DNA from: Sorangium sp.
GTDB taxonomy: Bacteria; Myxococcota_A; Polyangia; Polyangiales; Polyangiaceae
Length of the DNA stretch: 33,964 nt
Reading direction: 5' to 3'
Assembly (NCBI GenBank): GCA_019695485.1
Contig: JAEUAF010000646.1
Span: 1-33,964, forward strand
Below the pieces are notes generated by a model. The model saw only the letters and a list, made by a program, of their open reading frames with translations. It ran no database searches and was not told the DNA's origin. Of this stretch, positions 20,252 to 32,234 are shown piece after piece (within the stretch, counting starts at the first letter, position 1; every line of letters begins with the position of its first letter). The position numbers and the translations under genes are program-made.

Positions 20252-21345
20252 CACCGTGCGTGACCTTGGTGACCGGGTTTCCCGCCTTACGTGCGGCCCA
20301 CATCGTGCGCGCCTTGTTGCGCGAGGCGCGCTCGGACATCGTCGCTCTCGTCCATCCCGAGCGCCTGGAGGAGGCTCAGTCTTTGCTGGAGAAGTGGGAT
20401 CTTCCGCAGGGGCGAGTCAGCCTGGTTGAGGGTGACGCTGCGGCCATCGACTTCGGCCTCGACGGTGCAAATTACGTCGCCCTGGCGAGTTCGATCGAGG
20501 TCGTGCACGCCGCCTATTCGGTCACCGACGTTCCGGTCACCGAAGAGCTGGCGTTCGCCGTGAACGTCGGTGCTGCCCGCGAACTCGTCGAACTGTCGCG
20601 GGTTGCCAAGAGCCTGCGCCAAATAGCGCTCTATTCGAGCGTCTTCGTGAGCGGTCAGCGCGTGGGGCGCGTCGAGGAGCAAGAGCTTGTAGCGGGCCAA
20701 TCCTTCCACGGCCCGGTCGAGCAAACCCTGGCGATCGCCGAGCGAATGCTCAACAAATCGGGGGCCCCGCACATTGTCCTACGCGCCGGGCACTTGCTGG
20801 GCGACAGTGAACAGGGCGTCGTCGAGCACCTCGCCGGGCCGTATTGGCTGATCGCCTTCATTGCCAGCGCCGTCGGCGAGGCCGCACTGCCGTTGCCGCC
20901 GGGCGCCGAGGCGCTCCTCGCGCTTACTCCCGTGGATTACCTGGCTCGCTTCGGCGCGTTCGCAGTGAACGCCGCCAAGCCCGGCGCGACGCTGCACGTA
21001 ATCGACCCCAGCCAGCCTTCGCTGCGGCAATTTCTCGAGCTGGTTGCCGAGCGCTGCGGCCGCAAGCTCGAAACCGGCTTCAACCCGTCGGCGTTCACGC
21101 GGCTGTTCCTTGGAAATCCTGCGCTTCGTGCGCTGCCGCAGCAAGTGCGCGGCATTTTTGAGGTCCTGACCTCCGCCGCGGAGTACGCTATGCAAGGTGC
21201 GAACGAACTCGTGGCGCAGGGCGCACCCGCTTGCCCCACGCTGGCGAGCTACCTCGACCGACTCCTCGAGCATGTCCGACAAAGGAACGAAAGCGGCAGC
21301 CTCTACAGCGAGCGACGACTCTCCGCGCCGTTCCTCGTCAGCTGA
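20248..21345 (+). CDS. Degenerate extended short-chain dehydrogenase/reductase (NAD-epimerase/thioester-reductase-like)
   Basis: The 365-residue protein starts at the GTG in GTGA overlapping the preceding stop, with GGGAG 9 bp upstream; the track start at 20233 is less likely. It has the SDR layout: an N-terminal beta strand VTLVTGFP, a long helix AAHIVRALLR, the D-x-x-x segment VEGDAAAID, SIEVVHAAYSVTD in the position of YHLAA, NVGAARELVELSR and IALYSSVFVSG. The nucleotide-binding glycines are nearly lost (TGFPALRAAH instead of TGATGFLGxH), and the YxxxK catalytic pair is not found where FHGPVEQTLAIAE stands. It may bind a ligand without being a dehydrogenase. It shares an operon with a lipoprotein and an SGNH hydrolase. 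Overlap with the next gene is 74 bp. Confidence 0.7.
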   Translation: MTPCVTLVTGFPALRAAHIVRALLREARSDIVALVHPERLEEAQSLLEKWDLPQGRVSLVEGDAAAIDFGLDGANYVALASSIEVVHAAYSVTDVPVTEELAFAVNVGAARELVELSRVAKSLRQIALYSSVFVSGQRVGRVEEQELVAGQSFHGPVEQTLAIAERMLNKSGAPHIVLRAGHLLGDSEQGVVEHLAGPYWLIAFIASAVGEAALPLPPGAEALLALTPVDYLARFGAFAVNAAKPGATLHVIDPSQPSLRQFLELVAERCGRKLETGFNPSAFTRLFLGNPALRALPQQVRGIFEVLTSAAEYAMQGANELVAQGAPACPTLASYLDRLLEHVRQRNESGSLYSERRLSAPFLVS

Positions 21346-22705
21346 AGAGTCGGCTCGAAGCAGGCGCCGGCTCGTCGAAGCCTTGCTCGGCGCGTTCGCT
21401 TCGCTGCTGGCCGCAGTCGTCGCCATTACGTGCGCCGACTCGGGCGCGATCGCCAAGAGCAAGACCCCCGCCGTCGTCGCGGGCACGCCGTCCCACGCCC
21501 GCACACCGGAAATCGCTCCGCCGGCCGCGCGCGACGTGAAGTCCAGCTCTGCCCTGGATGCCGCGGGCGAGCAGCCCGCGCGTGCTGCCGAACTTGGGCA
21601 TTTCTTCGCGGCCCTCGAGGCGCTCGCGCGAGGGGAGCGCAAAGAGTCGGTGCGCATTCTCTGGTTTGGGGATTCGCACACCGCCGCGGACTATTGGACT
21701 GGGGCGGTACGTGCGCGTCTCTCGGAGCGCTACGGCTCCGGCGGCCCGGGCTTCGTGCGCGTTGGCGTCAGCCCGTGTCGACACGACCTCGCCGTGCTCA
21801 ATCGCACGGGGCGCTTTCGCGTCGAGCCCGAGCCGCCCGCGCGTCGCTCACTGCAGGACGATGGCGTCTTCGGGCTCGGGGGGATCCGCGTCGGGCCGAG
21901 TGCCGAACCGGTGCGCATGACGCTCAAGTTGCCAGCTCATGCGCCGACCGCTCGGGTGCACTTCACGGTGCTCTTCGATCTGCCCGATCCGAGCGCCACC
22001 GTGTTCCTGAATCTCGGCACAGAATCGGTCACGATTCAAAACGCGAACCAAGCCGCGCGCGTGCCCAACAGCCCGATTTTGCGTAAAGAGCTGAGCGGCA
22101 CCTCGACCGACGTACTGACGCTCGAGACGCGCCGCGGTCGTCCGCGCTTCTACGGCGTGCTGGTCGAAACGGATGCACCCGGCGTCGTGCTCGACACCCT
22201 CGGCATCGACGGCGCGCGCATCGCCACCACTTTGGCTTGGGCGGAGCTGCCCTTCGTGGCGGAGGTTGCGGCTCGCAATCCGGAGCTGTTCGTGGTGGCG
22301 TTTGGTACGAACGAAGCCTTCGACGAGCTCGATGTGACGGCCTACGACCGCCAGTTGTCAGAGCTTGTCGCGCGCTTGCGACGCGGCGCACCGCATGCAG
22401 ATTGTCTGGTTTTAGGGCCGCCCGATGCGCTGCTGTCGAGTGGTGAGCCGGCGCCGCGCGTCGCGCGCATCTCCGCGGTCTATGCCGAGGTGAGCCGCCG
22501 CCTAGGCTGCGCGTTCGCGAGCGCGCAGCAATTGATGGGCGGCCCGGGCAGCTTCGCGACTTGGTTGCGCGAGGATCCTCCGTTGGCGCGCCCGGATCGC
22601 ATTCACTTTACCCCTAAGGGTTATCGTGCGCTCGGCGAACTCGTGGCCGTGCGCGCGCTCGGGCTCGCGCCAGCGACGCCTGCCTTGCCCAAGAATTCGC
22701 CGTAG
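21272..22705 (+). CDS. SGNH/GDSL-type hydrolase, membrane-anchored (paralogue 1)
   Basis: The 477-residue protein starts at the ATG at 21272, within the 3' end of the SDR-like gene. After a Ser/Arg-rich cytosolic tail, a helix at about 33-54 (LVEALLGAFASLLAAVVAIT) anchors it, and the catalytic part is periplasmic. Block I is ILWFGDSHTAADY (Ser nucleophile at about 135), a Gly block follows (GSGGPGFV), block III is VVAFGTNEAFD, and block V is RPDRIHFTPKGY with the Asp-x-x-His pair, so the active site appears complete. A beta-rich insert (about 190-300) looks like a carbohydrate-binding-like domain. It probably adds or removes O-acyl groups on an extracellular polysaccharide or peptidoglycan; the substrate is inferred only from the superfamily. 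It is a close paralogue of the convergent gene at 22621-24159. Confidence 0.85.
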   Translation: MSDKGTKAAASTASDDSPRRSSSAEESARSRRRLVEALLGAFASLLAAVVAITCADSGAIAKSKTPAVVAGTPSHARTPEIAPPAARDVKSSSALDAAGEQPARAAELGHFFAALEALARGERKESVRILWFGDSHTAADYWTGAVRARLSERYGSGGPGFVRVGVSPCRHDLAVLNRTGRFRVEPEPPARRSLQDDGVFGLGGIRVGPSAEPVRMTLKLPAHAPTARVHFTVLFDLPDPSATVFLNLGTESVTIQNANQAARVPNSPILRKELSGTSTDVLTLETRRGRPRFYGVLVETDAPGVVLDTLGIDGARIATTLAWAELPFVAEVAARNPELFVVAFGTNEAFDELDVTAYDRQLSELVARLRRGAPHADCLVLGPPDALLSSGEPAPRVARISAVYAEVSRRLGCAFASAQQLMGGPGSFATWLREDPPLARPDRIHFTPKGYRALGELVAVRALGLAPATPALPKNSP

Positions 22706-24159
22706 CGCTGCATCAACGCGCGGAAGATCCAGGTTCCGATCAGGTCGGAGCCCTCCGCGCTCGGGTGTGTCAGATCGGCCTGGCCAAGCCCGCGTCGCAC
22801 CCATTTTGGCATCGATCCATTGCCACCCATCGCCCGATAGGTGTCGAAGAAGGCGCAGCCGACCTCCAGCGCGGCCTTGCGTTGCTCCTCGATCAGATGC
22901 GAAATGATCGCGAGGCTCGTGAGCTCGCTGCCGGTTTTGGTGGCGCGGTCCATGGCCCCAATCACCAAACAGCTGGAGTTTGGGAGTGCACGGCGGCCTT
23001 GGGCCAGCACTTCCTTCATGGTGCGGTGGTACTCGGGCATCGGGTACATGAGCCCGTCGGCGCTCTCGTTCGCCCCGAATTCGTAGATCAAGAGCTGCGG
23101 GCTGCGTAGCGCGAGCTGCTCTGCCCAGTGCGCGTCGTCTTGTTTGTCGAGAAAGCGTATTCGCGCGCCCTGAATGCCGATAGCGTCGAGCACGACGCCG
23201 GGGCCGTCGCGCTCCAGGGTCACGCCGAACAGGCGCGACGCGCCGCGTTTGGTGTAGACCTCGAATTCGTGCGGGCCGTCTGGGACCTGCACCAGCTGAA
23301 CTTTCGAGGTCGTGGCCTCGGCGTGGGTGTCGACCATGGTGTGTGGCGCGCCATCCACCGAAATCTGAAACGCACCGCCGCCGGGGCTGGCCAGGTAATA
23401 GACGCTGAAGCGCGAGACTTGGCGCCCGAACTCGCCCTTCTTGGGCGTCGAAAAGCGCGCCAGCACGTTCTTCTCCGCGCGGAACGAGACACAGCCGAGG
23501 CCGTAAAGGCCGTCCTCTGCGAGCGGCCCCACCACGCGGCTCACCTTCCAGCCCGCGGTCGCGTAGCGCTCGATGTCGTTGTGGAAGTAGGCCGGCCAAG
23601 CGTTGGCGATCAGCGTGAAGCCATGACCGGCGTCCCCGAAGCGCTCCTGAAAGCGTCGCCTGAGCGTGCCCGAGACGTAGTCGCTCGCCACCACGGAATC
23701 ACCAAAGTGCGTGATGCGCGTGACGGCTCCGGCTTCTTTCCGTCGCGTGCGTTCGAGCGCTCCGAAGAATCCAGTGAGCGCGCCGTCTGCAGCGACGAGC
23801 TCCACCTGGGGCGCGCGATCGACGAGGTCGTTCGGAACCGGATCAGTCGAAGTCCCGATCAGCGCGGCGCGCTTTGGGGTGCGCGCGGGCGCCGCGTCGA
23901 GCCCATCGCCGTGCCCCTGGGTCTCTTGTTGGAGCTCGGCTTCGCCCATCGCCACGCTGGAAGCGGGCTTCGCGGCTGGTTGTACGGCCTCCGGCCGCGC
24001 CGAAAACACGCGCAGCCGGGCGAAAGCTGGGATCCACTCGGCGAGCGCAGCCAGCACGAGCGCACCGATTACCGCGAGCACGGGTCGGCTCAGGAAGACT
24101 TCGCGCGGGCTCTCCACTTCGCGGCCACGCGCGTCGTCGAGGGGCCTCTGCTGTTCCAC
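22621..24159 (-). CDS. SGNH/GDSL-type hydrolase, membrane-anchored (paralogue 2)
   Basis: The 512-residue protein begins at a GTG only 9 bp after the stop of the FHA gene, so the two are one operon. A membrane helix lies at about 26-46 (PVLAVIGALVLAALAEWIPAF region). Active-site blocks are ITHFGDSVVASDY (Ser at 155), GDAGHGFT, LIYEFGANESADG, and QADLTHPSAEG with D-x-x-H. The insert and the line GPGVVLDAIGIQGARI correspond to APGVVLDTLGIDGARI in paralogue 1, showing common descent. The C-terminal tail (GASPSARTATSSPSAR) is low-complexity and lies in the 85-bp overlap with paralogue 1 on the other strand. A role in envelope polysaccharide acylation or deacylation is plausible, not proven. Confidence 0.85.
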   Translation of the reverse strand: MEQQRPLDDARGREVESPREVFLSRPVLAVIGALVLAALAEWIPAFARLRVFSARPEAVQPAAKPASSVAMGEAELQQETQGHGDGLDAAPARTPKRAALIGTSTDPVPNDLVDRAPQVELVAADGALTGFFGALERTRRKEAGAVTRITHFGDSVVASDYVSGTLRRRFQERFGDAGHGFTLIANAWPAYFHNDIERYATAGWKVSRVVGPLAEDGLYGLGCVSFRAEKNVLARFSTPKKGEFGRQVSRFSVYYLASPGGGAFQISVDGAPHTMVDTHAEATTSKVQLVQVPDGPHEFEVYTKRGASRLFGVTLERDGPGVVLDAIGIQGARIRFLDKQDDAHWAEQLALRSPQLLIYEFGANESADGLMYPMPEYHRTMKEVLAQGRRALPNSSCLVIGAMDRATKTGSELTSLAIISHLIEEQRKAALEVGCAFFDTYRAMGGNGSMPKWVRRGLGQADLTHPSAEGSDLIGTWIFRALMQRYGEFLGKAGVAGASPSARTATSSPSAR

Positions 24160-26941: not shown

Positions 26942-28156
26942 ATGGCTGAATTCACCTGGGAAGCCCGCGCCCGCACGGGCGAGCTGCGCAAAGGGGTGAT
27001 GGAGGCGGACAACGAGGACGCCGTCAATCAGCGTTTGCGCCAGCAGCAGCTGAGCCCCGTCAAGGTCGGGCGTAAGCGCAGTCTCGGCAGCATGAGCTTC
27101 GGCTCGGGTGTTTCGACTAAGGACCTCGTCACCTTCACGCGCTTGTTCGCGACCATGATCGACGCTGGCTTGCCGCTCGTTCAATGCCTCGAGATCCTGA
27201 GCAACCAGCAGCCGAATCAGCACTTTGCGGGGGTGCTCAAGGATATCCGCGGTTCTGTCGAGGGTGGCTCGACTTTCAGTGAGGCGCTGCGTCGCCACCC
27301 CAAGGTGTTCGACGAGCTCTTCGTGAACCTGACCCACGCCGGCGAGGTCGGCGGCATTCTGGACAGCATCTTGAACCGGCTCTCGGTTTACCTCGAGAAG
27401 CGCCAAAAGCTGATTCGGCAGGTGCGCGGCGCGCTCGTTTACCCGTCCATCGTCGTCGTGATCGCTGGCGGCGTGATGACGGTCCTGCTCACGTTCGTGA
27501 TTCCGGCGTTCGAGATGATGTTCAAGGACTTCGGCGGCGGCAAAGAGAACCTGCCGAAATTGACGCAGATCGTCGTCGACACCTCGCACTTCTTCGTGAC
27601 CGCGCTGCCCGCGCTGTTGGTTGGTGGCTTGCTCGCCGCGGTCGGCCTTGTCTACGGATATCGCACGCCGCGTGGAAAGCGCTTCGCTCATCGCTCGATG
27701 CTGAAGCTGCCGGTGATGGGTTCCGTGCTGCGAAAGATCGCCGTGGCGCGCTTCACCCGTACGCTGGGCACGCTGCTCCAGTCGGGCGTGCCGATCCTGG
27801 ATGCCCTCGAGATTTGCGCCAAGACCTCCGGCAACGTGATCGTCGAGAGCGGCATCATGTCCGTGCGCCAAGCCATCAGCGAGGGCCGCAACATGGCCGA
27901 GCCGTTGATGCAGACCCAGATCTTTCCAGACATGGTCGTGCAGATGATCGCCGTCGGCGAGCAGACCGGCGCGCTCGACCAGATGCTCAATAAGATCGCC
28001 GATTTCTACGAGGAAGAGACCGACGTCGCGGTAGCGGCCATGACCGCTGCCCTCGAACCGATCATGATGGTCGGCGTGGGCGGCATGGTCGGAGTCGTGC
28101 TGGTCTCGATGTACCTACCGATCTTTTCACTCGCGGGTAACATCAAGGCCGAGTGA
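26942..28156 (+). CDS. pilC: Type IV pilus / type II secretion inner-membrane platform protein (PilC/GspF)
   Basis: The 404-residue protein has the two repeated T2SSF domains: the first with FTRLFATMIDAGLPLVQCLEIL (about 63-84), the second with FTRTLGTLLQSGVPILDALEI (about 273-293). Three membrane helices are visible: about 174-196 (YPSIVVVIAGGVMTVLLTFV), about 215-240 and about 370-395 (MVGVGGMVGVVLVSMYLPIF). The N-terminal MAEFTWEARARTGE matches PilC more than GspF. It anchors the assembly machine and is driven by PilB/PilT ATPases, none of which lies in this window. It is followed by the pilS-like gene with a GTGA overlap. Confidence 0.93.
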   Translation: MAEFTWEARARTGELRKGVMEADNEDAVNQRLRQQQLSPVKVGRKRSLGSMSFGSGVSTKDLVTFTRLFATMIDAGLPLVQCLEILSNQQPNQHFAGVLKDIRGSVEGGSTFSEALRRHPKVFDELFVNLTHAGEVGGILDSILNRLSVYLEKRQKLIRQVRGALVYPSIVVVIAGGVMTVLLTFVIPAFEMMFKDFGGGKENLPKLTQIVVDTSHFFVTALPALLVGGLLAAVGLVYGYRTPRGKRFAHRSMLKLPVMGSVLRKIAVARFTRTLGTLLQSGVPILDALEICAKTSGNVIVESGIMSVRQAISEGRNMAEPLMQTQIFPDMVVQMIAVGEQTGALDQMLNKIADFYEEETDVAVAAMTAALEPIMMVGVGGMVGVVLVSMYLPIFSLAGNIKAE

Positions 28157-29496
28157 AGCGCATCCCGCTCGGGCTCCCGGAAATCGTCAGCTCAGGTCCT
28201 CTGGCTCGCCGTCTGGCTTGGCTGACGGGTGCGCGCCTTTTGTTTCTCACCATCGCGCTCGCGCTCGTGGGCATGTTCTACCTGCGCGATGTGTACGATA
28301 CGGGTTCCTACACGCTGCGCGTGAGCCTCGCGACTCTTGCCTTGTCGTTTGCCGTGGCCGCCGTGTATGCCGGCGTTCTTCGCAGCGGTCGCGGGCTCGA
28401 GCGGCTCGCCTACGTCCAGGTCGTGCTGGACCAGGTCACCTGGACCGTCGTCGCCTATTTGACGGGCGGGATTACCAGCGGGGCCACCTCGTTTTATGGA
28501 CTGAGTTGCCTGTTGGGGGCGAGCCTGAGCGGGATGCGCGGGGCAGCCGCCGCTGCTGTCGGCGCCGGCATCTCGTATGGCGGGCTCGTCTTGGCGCTGC
28601 AGCGGGGTTGGCTGAAGCCGCCCGTCGATCAAGCCTCGAGCCTTTATCTCGTTTCGTCGGATGAAGTCTCGTTCTACGTCATCGTCAACCTGCTCGTGTT
28701 GGTGGTGGTCTCGCTGCTGGCGGGGACCTTGGTCGAGCGCTTGCGCTGGACAGGTGGTGAGCTCGTACTGGCGACGGAGCGGGCTGATCGTGCCGAACGC
28801 ATGGCGGCGCTCGGTAGGCTCGCGACCGGCTTGGCGCACGAGATCAGAAATCCCCTCGGCTCGATCGCCGGCTGCATCCAGCTGCTCAAAACTGCTCCGA
28901 GCCTGTGCGAAGAGGACCGACGGCTCTGCGACATCATTCAGCGCGAAGCGGCTCGCCTGAATGATCTGGTCACCGACATGGTGGATCTGTCGCGGCCGCG
29001 TACGCCGCTGCTGGTAAACGTCGACGTCGCCAGCATCGCGCGCGAGGTCGTCGTTCTGGCTTCGGGGTCTGGGCGCGCCGTGTCCGACGTCAACGTGCGC
29101 TACGAGGGGTTGAGCTCCGCGCCGGTGCGCGCGGACGGTGCCCAGCTGCGTCAGCTAGTGTGGAACTTGGTGCGCAACGCGGTGCAAGCCTCGCGCCCCT
29201 CGGACACCGTCGTCGTGGCCACGCGACGCACGGAGGCCGGCGTCATCGAACTCAGCGTGGTGGATCAGGGACCCGGCATCGACGATGCTGCCCGAGAGCG
29301 ACTCTTCGACGCGTTCTTCACGACTCGGTCGCAAGGCACAGGCGTCGGACTCGCGGTGGTCAAACGTATCGCCGACGACCACGGCTTTACAATCCAGGTG
29401 GATAGCTCGGCAGGTCAGGGGGCGGCTTTTCGCGTGACTTTGGAAGGGCCGCGCAGCGAACCGCCACCCCCGGGGGACGCGATTCAGCTCGGCTGA
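28153..29496 (+). CDS. PilS-like membrane sensor histidine kinase
   Basis: The 447-residue protein begins at a GTG overlapping the pilC stop (GTGA). It has about six membrane helices in the first 195 residues (WLTGARLLFLTIALALVGMF, LATLALSFAVAAVY, LVLVVVSLLAGTLV among them) and no periplasmic or PAS sensor. The kinase core has the H-box ATGLAHEIRNPLGS (phospho-acceptor His at 229), N-box LVWNLVRNAVQAS, G1 VDQGPGI, F-box FDAFFTT and G2 GTGVGLAVVK, so it should be active. PilS pairs with the sigma-54 activator PilR to drive pilA. No response regulator follows it here; instead a sigma-54-type promoter lies about 120 bp downstream. PilS-like is a family-level call. Confidence 0.85.
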   Translation: MKRIPLGLPEIVSSGPLARRLAWLTGARLLFLTIALALVGMFYLRDVYDTGSYTLRVSLATLALSFAVAAVYAGVLRSGRGLERLAYVQVVLDQVTWTVVAYLTGGITSGATSFYGLSCLLGASLSGMRGAAAAAVGAGISYGGLVLALQRGWLKPPVDQASSLYLVSSDEVSFYVIVNLLVLVVVSLLAGTLVERLRWTGGELVLATERADRAERMAALGRLATGLAHEIRNPLGSIAGCIQLLKTAPSLCEEDRRLCDIIQREAARLNDLVTDMVDLSRPRTPLLVNVDVASIAREVVVLASGSGRAVSDVNVRYEGLSSAPVRADGAQLRQLVWNLVRNAVQASRPSDTVVVATRRTEAGVIELSVVDQGPGIDDAARERLFDAFFTTRSQGTGVGLAVVKRIADDHGFTIQVDSSAGQGAAFRVTLEGPRSEPPPPGDAIQLG

Positions 29497-29507
29497 CAGC
29501 ATTTCGT

Positions 29508-29539
29508 GGGGCGTTACTGTGCGCGAGGGGCGACGCTGT
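29508..29539 (+). repeat. Tandem direct repeats GGGGCGNNNCTGT, possible activator binding sites
   Basis: GGGGCGTTACTGT (29508-29520) and GGGGCGACGCTGT (29527-29539) differ only in a 3-base centre and start 19 bp apart. Their centres are about 131 and 112 bp upstream of the start predicted from the sigma-54-type promoter at 29618-29634, the usual range for enhancer-binding protein sites. Confidence 0.45.
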
Positions 29540-29617
29540 AGCGATTCGTTCACGACCGGCCTTCGAGTGGAAACGACAGATCTCGCGCGAATGGAGGGCG
29601 CGCGTTGAAGGAAGGGC

Positions 29618-29634
29618 TTGGCATCCCCCTTGCG
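29618..29634 (+). promoter_or_regulatory. Sigma-54-type (-24/-12) promoter upstream of mlaC-like gene
   Basis: TTGGCATCCCCCTTGCG matches the consensus YTGGCACGNNNNTTGCW with the invariant GG at 29620-29621 and GC at 29632-29633, exactly 10 bp apart. The predicted start is near 29645, about 24 bp upstream of the MlaC-like ATG, with GAGG as ribosome-binding site. It needs a bacterial enhancer-binding protein; tandem repeats that could bind one lie upstream. Confidence 0.65.
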
Positions 29635-29668
29635 TATATCCAGATGACTCCTAGATTCCCGAGGTCCC

Positions 29669-30268
29669 ATGAAAACGCATCGCCTTCGTGCTGTTGCTCT
29701 CTCCGCTGCCCTGATGCTGCTGGCTCCGTTCGCGCATGCGTCGCCCGCTGGCGACTTCGTGCGTGCCAAGCAGACCCAGCTGCTCGACTACATGCGGCAC
29801 GCGAAGACCGCGGAAGACGAAAAGAAGGTACAGGCAGCCTTCGATTCCGCCCTCGACTACGACACGCTCGCCAAGGAGTCCCTGAAGGAAGCTTGGGACG
29901 GCCTCAAGCCTGAAGAGCGCACTGAATTCCAGGGGATTTTGACGAAGCTCGTGCGCGCTGCCTACCGCAAGAGTCTCAAGCGGATTCGCGACTACGACGT
30001 CGAATATGTCGGCGAGTCGAAAGAAGACTCGCGCGCGATCGTGCTCACCCGGGCCAAGAGCACCACCGATAATCGTGAGGAGCCGGTTACCATCAACTAT
30101 GTGGTGAGCCAGGCTTCCGGCGCCTGGCGGATCGTGGATATCGTGACCGAAGGCTCGAGTTTGGTCGGCAATTACCGCAGCCAGTTCCGCCGTATCATCA
30201 AGAAGCAAGGCTTTCCCGAGCTCATCCGGCGCATGAAGACCAAGCTCGAAAAGGGCGACGTCGACTAG
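29669..30268 (+). CDS. MlaC-like phospholipid-binding periplasmic protein (toluene-tolerance Ttg2D family)
   Basis: The 199-residue protein has a clear Sec signal peptide (MKTHRLRAVALSAALMLLAPFAHA, cleaved after AHA at about 24). The mature protein has the MlaC fold marks: a helix around DYDTLAKESLKEAW, the FQGILTKLVRAAYRKSL helix, an antiparallel beta sheet (DVEYVGE, RAIVLTRAK, EEPVTINYVV, AWRIVDIVTEGSSLVGNY) and the closing FRRIIKKQGFPELI. MlaC carries phospholipid between the outer-membrane MlaA complex and the inner-membrane MlaFEDB transporter. No mlaABDEF is in the window, so it is a lone copy here. A sigma-54-type promoter sits directly upstream, which is unusual for a gene of this kind. 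Confidence 0.88.
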   Translation: MKTHRLRAVALSAALMLLAPFAHASPAGDFVRAKQTQLLDYMRHAKTAEDEKKVQAAFDSALDYDTLAKESLKEAWDGLKPEERTEFQGILTKLVRAAYRKSLKRIRDYDVEYVGESKEDSRAIVLTRAKSTTDNREEPVTINYVVSQASGAWRIVDIVTEGSSLVGNYRSQFRRIIKKQGFPELIRRMKTKLEKGDVD

Positions 30269-30270
30269 CG

Positions 30271-30322
30271 GGCGGCCAAAACACCCGCTGATTCGGGTTG
30301 TTTCGCGCCCGACTTGGCCGCC
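30271..30322 (+). terminator. Nested-hairpin terminator after the mlaC-like gene
   Basis: An outer perfect 9-bp repeat GGCGGCCAA (30271-30279) / TTGGCCGCC (30314-30322) encloses a smaller hairpin AACACCCG-CTGATT-CGGGTTGTT (one bulge) followed by TTC. The inner stem plus T-rich end fits a factor-independent terminator. The outer arms could form a competing structure. Confidence 0.6.
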
Positions 30323-30353
30323 GGGGGGTTAGCCCTGGTACGATTTCGGCCCC

Positions 30354-32234
30354 TTGGTACCCTCGGCCCACAGCCCCAGCGTCCCCCCCGAGGCGGAACC
30401 CAATTCCGCCTCGGCGAAAGCCATTCTGGCTGAGGACCAGCGCGTTCCCCTGCGCCTGACGGCCCAACGGGGAATGCTGGGGCTCGAGCTCTACGAGACG
30501 GTCGAAATTGGGCCGCTGACGGTCAAGAAGCTCGCGCTAACCCTGCCGGGGTTGACCTTTCCTCTCGATCTTTCGGGGGGCGTGCCCAAGTTTCGGCATC
30601 GCCGGGGGGAGCTCGAGCACCTGACCCTGAGCGTCGAGTTGTCGACCTTGGCTCGCTGGGCGGGGCGCCGAATGGGCTCCGTCTTTGAGCTGCACGGTCG
30701 TCCCCCCGCGCTGTTCCCAGTACCGGGCGGGCTCGGGGTCGGTCTGGTCGGCCCGGGGCAGGCGCTGGCCTTCGATTTGTTGTGGGCCCCGAGCGGGGGC
30801 GATGGGCGTTTCGTGGTGGCACGCGCGCGCGGTGTCGGGTTCGAAGTACCCGCCCTGGCGGTCGCGCTGCGCGTCGTGGGAGCGGTGCTCGGCAAGCTCG
30901 CGAGCCCTCGTGGCCGCAGCGTGCGTTTCATCGACGTGGGTCGGGAGCTCGGCCGAATCCTACTACCTGCCGTTGGGGCCCGCGCGCCATCCGCGGACCG
31001 AGTGCACTTTGCGGGCTTGGTCGTCGCGCGTGAGCACATCGAGGTGGCGCTCGACTCCGCCGCGACCGCTCCAGAGCTCGCCGCGGAAGTCACGCGCGCG
31101 GCCGAGCTCGCCGAGCTTTTGCGCGAGGCGGATGAGCGGCTCGGCGTGGGGGACATCGAGGCTGCGCGCCGCGCCTACGTCACAGCGCTCGAGCAAGCGC
31201 CGCGGCACCCGGAAATCGTGCGCTTGGTCGCCGAAATCGACGCCAAGGTGCGCGGTCGCGCCGAAGCCGCGCTCGGCCTGGTGGTGGAGTGTTTGCCCGC
31301 GACGCAAGCTGGGTTGGTGGGCGCGGAGCTCTTGGCCCAAGTTGGCGACTACAGCGGTGCGCGTCAGGCCGTCGAGGCCGCCGTCAGCAACGAGGTGTTT
31401 GCGCCGCTGGCAGCGCTCAGCTGGCTCAGGCTCGCCGAGCTTCACCCAGACGTCGTCGTGCGCGTCGAAGCGCTGGACCGCGCCGTTGCGCGCGCGCCGG
31501 GCTTGCCTGAGCCACGCTGGGCGCGCTTCGCGGCGCGCGTGGAGCGTGGGGATCTGGAACGTGCGCTATCGGATGCCGAGCACCTCGAAGCCGTCGAGAG
31601 CGGCGCGCGCGCCCGGCATGATGTGTGTCGGCGCGCGGCTCGGCTGCTGCTCGATGCCGGTCATGTTCGCGACGCGGGTCGGCTATTCGAGCGCGCGCTT
31701 CGCTACCTGCCCGATGACGCCACCGCAACGGCCGGGCTGGCGCGCGCGCTTTCCGCGGGTGGGCGCGCGGATCGCGCGCTCGCGCTGTTCGAACGAGCCG
31801 TCGAACTCGGCGAGCACTCGGGGCGCTTCGATGCCGAAGCGCTGATCGACCTCGCGCGCTTGCTCGCCGACCACGCCAAGGATTTGCCGCAGGCGGTTGC
31901 ACGCTTGCGCCAGGTGTCGGCCGCCTCCGAGCGGGTGGTCGAAGCGCGCTACCTGGAGGGGAGCTATCGGGCGCGGCTCGGCGACCGCTCCGGCGCTGCG
32001 CTCGCGTTCGGTCGGATGCGCGAGGCGATCGAGCTTGGCTCGCCGACCGCGCGTGGCCTCTCGGCGTGGTTGCTAGAGGCCGCGGAGAATTCGCTCGGAG
32101 TCGACGACGACGCTCCGGCCGCGGAGCGCCACTTGGCGGTTGCGCTGCGCCTTGCGCCTAGCGACGAGCGCATCGCCCAGCGCTATCGTGAGGTGGCCGC
32201 GCTACTCGCGGATCGGCGCCGTCCCCGACGCTGA
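30354..32234 (+). CDS. Large TPR-repeat protein with an unassigned N-terminal domain
   Basis: The 626-residue ORF starts at a TTG at 30354; an ATG at 30474 (preceded by CGGGGA) is an alternative. Residues about 40-230 form an unassigned beta-rich domain (GLELYETVEIGPLTVKKLAL, LPGLTFPLDLSGGVPKFRHR, LFPVPGGLGVGLVGPG), apparently conserved among myxobacteria. From about 260 on there are repeated TPR-like helix pairs (IEAARRAYVTALEQAPRHPE, DAGRLFERALRYLPDDATA, RALALFERAVELGEHSG) to the end. There is no signal peptide or membrane helix, so it is probably cytosolic and a scaffold. Codon third positions are mainly G/C throughout, including the first 40 codons, which argues mildly for the upstream start. 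The gene is separate from mlaC by the terminator. Confidence 0.75.
   Translation: MVPSAHSPSVPPEAEPNSASAKAILAEDQRVPLRLTAQRGMLGLELYETVEIGPLTVKKLALTLPGLTFPLDLSGGVPKFRHRRGELEHLTLSVELSTLARWAGRRMGSVFELHGRPPALFPVPGGLGVGLVGPGQALAFDLLWAPSGGDGRFVVARARGVGFEVPALAVALRVVGAVLGKLASPRGRSVRFIDVGRELGRILLPAVGARAPSADRVHFAGLVVAREHIEVALDSAATAPELAAEVTRAAELAELLREADERLGVGDIEAARRAYVTALEQAPRHPEIVRLVAEIDAKVRGRAEAALGLVVECLPATQAGLVGAELLAQVGDYSGARQAVEAAVSNEVFAPLAALSWLRLAELHPDVVVRVEALDRAVARAPGLPEPRWARFAARVERGDLERALSDAEHLEAVESGARARHDVCRRAARLLLDAGHVRDAGRLFERALRYLPDDATATAGLARALSAGGRADRALALFERAVELGEHSGRFDAEALIDLARLLADHAKDLPQAVARLRQVSAASERVVEARYLEGSYRARLGDRSGAALAFGRMREAIELGSPTARGLSAWLLEAAENSLGVDDDAPAAERHLAVALRLAPSDERIAQRYREVAALLADRRRPRR
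30388..30414. repeat. 11-bp perfect inverted repeat near the start of the TPR gene
   Basis: CCGAGGCGGAA-CCCAA-TTCCGCCTCGG lies within the first 20 codons of the ORF from 30354, or in the leader if the ATG at 30474 is the true start. A stem this long and GC-rich could affect translation or transcription. Confidence 0.5.

Follow-up and report, generated by a model that had tools for sequence, protein, structure and literature searches.

MlaC-family genes usually occur in mla operons. In the Sorangium sp. DNA analysed here, a gene of this family instead stands inside a type IV pilus locus, directly behind a PilS-type sensor kinase gene, and the question is whether it has a promoter of its own there and which regulator would act on it. 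A sequence-only reading had proposed a sigma-54 promoter with tandem upstream repeats between the two genes and, from it, a link between pili and outer-membrane lipid asymmetry. The window, that is, the whole stretch of 33,964 nucleotides that was analysed, corresponds to a single contig (C487) from a 7.7 Mb draft genome that is 84% complete and has 66% G+C. Comparisons were made within the family Polyangiaceae; Sorangium, Polyangium, and Minicystis are among its named members.

The pilus locus and its kinase

The following genes of the window, all on the forward strand, make up the locus.

26942 to 28156, forward strand: pilC, the myxobacterial PilC, inner-membrane platform protein of the type IV pilus
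28153 to 29496, forward strand: PilS-type sensor histidine kinase gene (PF00512 HisKA, PF02518 HATPase, six-transmembrane-type N terminus)
29669 to 30268, forward strand: mlaC-like gene (PF05494, E 2.8e-30; HpnM, E 7.7e-27)
30354 to 32234, forward strand: TPR-repeat gene, 3' of mlaC, an order kept in most pilS-linked loci

PilC matched NF052606 with an E value of 3e-168 and 560 bits (under the model's cut-off of 700) and GspF with an E value of 7e-112, and it is 61 to 84% identical among the family loci. The gap between pilS and mlaC measures 172 bp (29497 to 29668). Of 98 family genomes, 94 yielded an mlaC homologue, and the order pilC-pilS-mlaC occurs family-wide: among 69 tested loci, 50 had pilS directly upstream of mlaC, usually with pilC ahead of it. 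A GC-rich inverted repeat seen by eye between mlaC and the TPR gene (30270 to 30330) is a possible terminator, and mlaC may therefore be transcribed alone. Elsewhere in the window, two GDSL-type hydrolase genes with about 30% mutual identity converge and overlap (21197 to 22705, forward strand; 22621 to 24159, reverse strand), and this pair is retained in many relatives.

That a PilS-type kinase precedes mlaC, as the sequence-only reading had it, was borne out both by domain matches and by the linkage across the family. The six-transmembrane PilS domain (PF25323) matched the window kinase weakly, with an E value of 0.022; of five other family members scanned for it, two exceeded the cut-off. 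No PAS domain was matched at an E value of 1 or below in the 447 residues of the window kinase, and the PilS proteins of sister families, also encoded after pilC, are 536 to 594 amino acids long, about 90 to 150 residues more. No response regulator or activator gene stands directly beside pilS in the family loci. A neighbouring activator was considered as the partner of pilS and set aside; the few activator-like matches were kilobases off and differed between loci.

In several genera, the PilS open reading frame continues in frame across a hydrophobic segment that resembles a lipobox and on into a 3D domain (PF06725). These fusions, of 706 to 741 amino acids, are as follows.

L375, 3967 to 6087, reverse strand: PilS-3D fusion
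L377, 4406 to 6631, forward strand: PilS-3D fusion
L378, 3616 to 5757, reverse strand: PilS-3D fusion
L381, 4355 to 6541, forward strand: PilS-3D fusion

Each is apparently a sensor kinase fused to a periplasmic domain of the cell-wall type. Three of the four genomes have mlaC at another place, and none was found in the fourth (G024).

A -24/-12 element before mlaC

Two features of the intergenic region bear on the promoter itself.

29618 to 29633, forward strand: sigma-54 -24/-12 element TTGGCATCCCCCTTGC, with a conserved extension, GTA, at 29634 to 29636
29645, forward strand: predicted transcription start, placed from the position and spacing of the -12 element

The element reads TTGGCAT-N5-TTGC. 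Its GG (29620 and 29621) and GC (29632 and 29633) are spaced exactly 10 bp apart, and the predicted start at about 29645 lies 24 nucleotides 5' of the mlaC ATG at 29669; on these coordinates and on the spacing to the start, the earlier reading agrees with ours. The match by itself is weak and, in a single window, close to chance: TGGCAC-N5-TTGC with up to two mismatches occurs 35 times in the window against 34.4 expected, as many as in shuffled sequence. Within its own mlaC upstream region the element has a p value of 0.01, using a sigma-54 matrix that is our own approximation of the consensus. Genome-wide, TTGGCAY-N5-TTGC has 14 sites, compared to 4 for the reversed control. The genome also contains 61 matches to the sigma-54 activator domain (PF00158), which imply that it has an rpoN gene.

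The count within the window would also suit a chance match, in which case mlaC would be transcribed as an extension of pilC-pilS or from a promoter of the sigma-70 type. The two genes are co-directional across their short gap, and in two relatives of genus g19 no sigma-54 site was found before mlaC, where a TATACT box is visible by eye instead. What argues against this explanation, and makes it very improbable in our judgement, is the distribution of the element among relatives.

Conservation across Polyangiaceae

For each gene start, we scored the 230 bp that surround and precede it, kept the best sigma-54 site, and counted the sites with a p value of 0.02 or below. Such a site was found in 30 of 50 pilS-linked mlaC upstream regions, compared to 1 of 42 pilC starts, 2 of 50 pilS starts, and 0 of 40 TPR gene starts, in counts where related species are not independent. 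The element thus recurs across many genera against three negative controls. Its long form, TTGGCAY-N5-TTGCGTA, is rare genome-wide, with 13 occurrences in 13 genomes, 9 of which are mlaC promoters, and none for the reversed control. The remaining long-form sites were also considered and set aside, as they share no common gene type and no palindrome was seen upstream of them. Furthermore, although mlaC and pilS are separated in several genera, the sigma-54 site remains in front of mlaC at loci without an adjoining pilS, as in genus g38 (L046 and L027) and in genome G039 (L054), whose mlaC and pilS are more than 3 kb apart.

Variant forms accompany this pattern. About a third of the pilS-linked loci have no clear -24/-12 site by our matrix. 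In the Polyangium genus g15 (L017, L018, L022, L023, L025, and L044), TGGCACGGAAGGTGAATAAACG precedes mlaC in strictly conserved form and reads GA rather than GC at -12 (GG-N10-GA), a form that we read as an altered or decayed sigma-54 promoter. A distant mlaC clade (L089, L362, L363, L364, and L365) has the form GGCATGAATCNNGC before mlaC, a degenerate GG-N10-GC whose -12 part is unusual. In genus g21, the complete genomes (L349, L350, and L351) have no sigma-54 site before mlaC, and pilC, pilS, and PilR are missing from them; mlaC there adjoins the serine hydrolase gene that in other loci usually diverges from pilC. Two loci of the window's own genus (L369 and L370, from genomes G088 and G095) run pilC-pilS-TPR with no intervening mlaC, and both genomes encode a distant MlaC, 34 to 35% identical, elsewhere.

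Because the element is conserved before mlaC, and not by virtue of the match in one window, we consider it convincing and real. A search of orthologous loci had been suggested with the original proposal, for both the GG-N10-GC and the repeats: the former proved to be conserved, and the latter were absent from the upstream regions of relatives.

Upstream elements

Two further features lie upstream of the -24/-12 element.

29508 to 29539, forward strand: tandem copies of GGGGCGNNNCTGT, at chance level, not conserved, and outside the mechanism proposed below
29538 to 29553, forward strand: candidate enhancer GTAGC-GATTCG-TTCAC, an instance of the conserved palindrome GTRRY-N6-TTCAC

The tandem copies had been put forward as the enhancer. 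Both are present, at 29508 and 29527, and both are exact in the ten specified bases, which speaks for them as activator sites. Yet when the intergenic region was shuffled 300 times, 76 of the shuffles contained an equally good 13-mer pair, and no repeat of this type was seen in the mlaC upstream regions of relatives. The conserved element is the palindrome beside them, which overlaps the end of the second copy. That the GGGGCGNNNCTGT copies themselves serve as activator sites is therefore most unlikely, and the enhancer role assigned to them falls away.

The palindrome was examined in intergenic sequence only and then gap by gap. GTTCAC half-sites occur in mlaC upstream regions of 7 genera, compared to 1.2 expected. 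The full pattern, GTRRY-N6-TTCAC, occurs in 9 genera against 0.06 expected, an expectation that is optimistic because some of these sequences had also served to refine the pattern; any other gap gave 0 or 1 genus, and this contrast, specific to a gap of 6, is not explained by refinement on shared data. The distance from the palindrome to the -24 element varies from 57 to 222 bp. Across 3.09 Mb of loci, the palindrome with a -24/-12 element downstream occurred only at mlaC, save for one loose match. From pattern and position, the palindrome is a likely candidate for the activator-binding site of the mlaC promoter. Conservation across the family supports the sigma-54, enhancer-type promoter first proposed for mlaC, and the intergenic region (29497 to 29668) probably serves the mlaC-like gene, within the pilus locus, as a sigma-54 promoter of its own that is activated from an enhancer.

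PilR and the identity of the activator

PilR is known to activate the sigma-54 promoters of pilA in Myxococcus xanthus and Pseudomonas aeruginosa (PMC6211767, PMC6058289), and pilA, pilR, pilS, and other T4aP genes are scattered in Sorangiineae (PMC6060248). The present genome has a PilR orthologue at positions 775 to 2202 of contig C335, and the orthologue is conserved in the family (60 to 81% identical in most genomes). In relatives, PilR precedes the pilin genes, and in the loci examined its immediate neighbours do not include a kinase gene. Pilin loci were taken from the present genome (contig C237, L305), L306, L307, and L282 to L304; the pilins lie 3' of pilR in L306, L307, and most of L282 to L304 and on the separate contig C237 in the present genome. 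The pilB-pilT locus was considered as the home of PilR and rejected, there being no activator gene among those called at that locus. The pilin promoters carry sigma-54 sites and, 65 to 147 bp upstream, the palindrome GTGAC-N7-GTCAC, which is probably the PilR operator of Polyangiaceae.

The absences of PilS and PilR coincide (Fisher p = 0.0026 in all genomes and 0.0015 in those at least 95% complete), although the independent losses behind this are few, two or three in number (in genus g21, in G004, and perhaps in G075). Because of this coincidence, the data suggest that PilS and PilR are a split pair. In genus g21 and G004, where both are lost, mlaC has no sigma-54 site. In G039, no PilR orthologue was found, though PilS and the mlaC sigma-54 site are present.

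A direct route would then be for PilS to phosphorylate PilR and for PilR to activate both the pilins and mlaC, which would place mlaC in the PilSR regulon. The kinase with a PilS-type transmembrane domain and no adjacent regulator, and the conserved PilR with no neighbouring kinase gene ahead of pilins with sigma-54 promoters, fit this route, as do the joint losses, the mlaC genes that have no sigma-54 site where both proteins are gone, and the contiguous pilC, pilS, and pilR of two more distant families (L322 and L324). The half-sites are also alike, GTGAC at the pilins and GTTCAC at mlaC. However, the mlaC palindrome is one base shorter (N6 rather than N7), and the pilin operator GTGAC-N7-GTCAC is not above chance at mlaC promoters (Fisher p = 0.66); a pilin-type operator with a gap of 6, 7, or 8 was likewise considered and showed no enrichment there. 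G039, which keeps PilS and the promoter, and the genera in which mlaC is apart from pilS also speak against this route. Because the mlaC promoters do not have the pilin-type operator, we do not favour direct control by PilR. It would be possible, with a real but lesser share of the probability.

Product of the mlaC-like gene

The mlaC-like gene is single copy, and no second MlaC-family gene was found in the draft genome. Its nearest named family is HpnM, below the cut-off. Solved relatives were found by sequence, and in the structure model (pLDDT 88.9) the twelve best fold matches all belong to the MlaC/Ttg2D family; the product is, by this model, a periplasmic lipid-binding protein of that fold. 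MCE (MlaD) proteins occur in 2 to 4 copies per genome, unlinked to mlaC. No PF04333 match, i.e., no MlaA, was found in seven family genomes, in a search that was positive in the Escherichia coli and Caulobacter controls. A periplasmic lipid-transport role for the product is a reasonable expectation. Retrograde transport and lipid asymmetry are not established, because MlaA was not found, and the outer-membrane lipid asymmetry of the original proposal was an overstatement.

Discussion

The sequence directly gives the promoter element and its recurrence among relatives, the conserved palindrome, the arrangement of the genes, and a fold prediction; from these we infer the use of the promoter, DNA looping, the activator's identity, and the lipid-transport role. 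In the mechanism that we propose, sigma-54 RNA polymerase would wait as a closed complex on the -24/-12 element at 29618 to 29633. A dimeric activator of the NtrC family would bind the palindrome at 29538 to 29553, about 80 bp upstream, and would open the promoter across a DNA loop by ATP hydrolysis, raising the amount of a putative periplasmic lipid carrier of the MlaC/Ttg2D fold. The likely partner of the PAS-less PilS, which has no adjacent regulator, would be the PilR encoded elsewhere, beside the pilins in relatives. PilR itself may act at mlaC, but the sites would be better suited to a related activator whose own operator has a different spacing. PilS may control mlaC, as the sequence-only reading proposed. 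We suggest tentatively, and regard as rather doubtful, that the PAS-less PilS senses the state of the pilin or the membrane and sets the level of the lipid carrier via a sigma-54 activator, coupling the pilus to envelope repair. The PilS-3D fusion would provide a second route from the PilS sensor to the envelope.

Like known pilA promoters, the mlaC promoter combines a -24/-12 element and a candidate upstream site in a locus that contains pilS, and the pilins of the family also have sigma-54 sites. Unlike the pilA system, its target is a periplasmic lipid carrier, the half-sites of its candidate operator are spaced differently from those at the pilins, and the PilS and PilR genes are apart. 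The predicted PilR regulon of Geobacter sulfurreducens includes cell-envelope genes, according to the available part of the summary in PMC6058289, and in this respect offers a parallel, in which a regulator of pili is connected with non-pilus sigma-54 promoters; that part of the summary does not name mlaC. The link in Polyangiaceae differs in resting on a conserved locus and promoter and not on PilR site matches. Compared to the Mla system, the protein belongs to the same family and fold as MlaC, Ttg2D, and HpnM (PF05494), but mlaC lies outside an mla operon, MlaA was not found, and the MCE (MlaD) genes are elsewhere. The term mlaC has no occurrence in the text of PMC6060248, and a literature search for mlaC with sigma-54 or PilR returned nothing relevant and no account of an mlaC promoter in this suborder, within a coverage that most subscription papers fall outside.

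For a group in which pilus regulation has been little studied, the analysis provides two candidate operators, GTRRY-N6-TTCAC at mlaC and GTGAC-N7-GTCAC at the pilins. A family-wide promoter of the enhancer type means that the lipid carrier is probably made on demand. With mlaC inside the pilus locus, a link between the pilus and the envelope is directly testable in cultured Sorangium and Polyangium.
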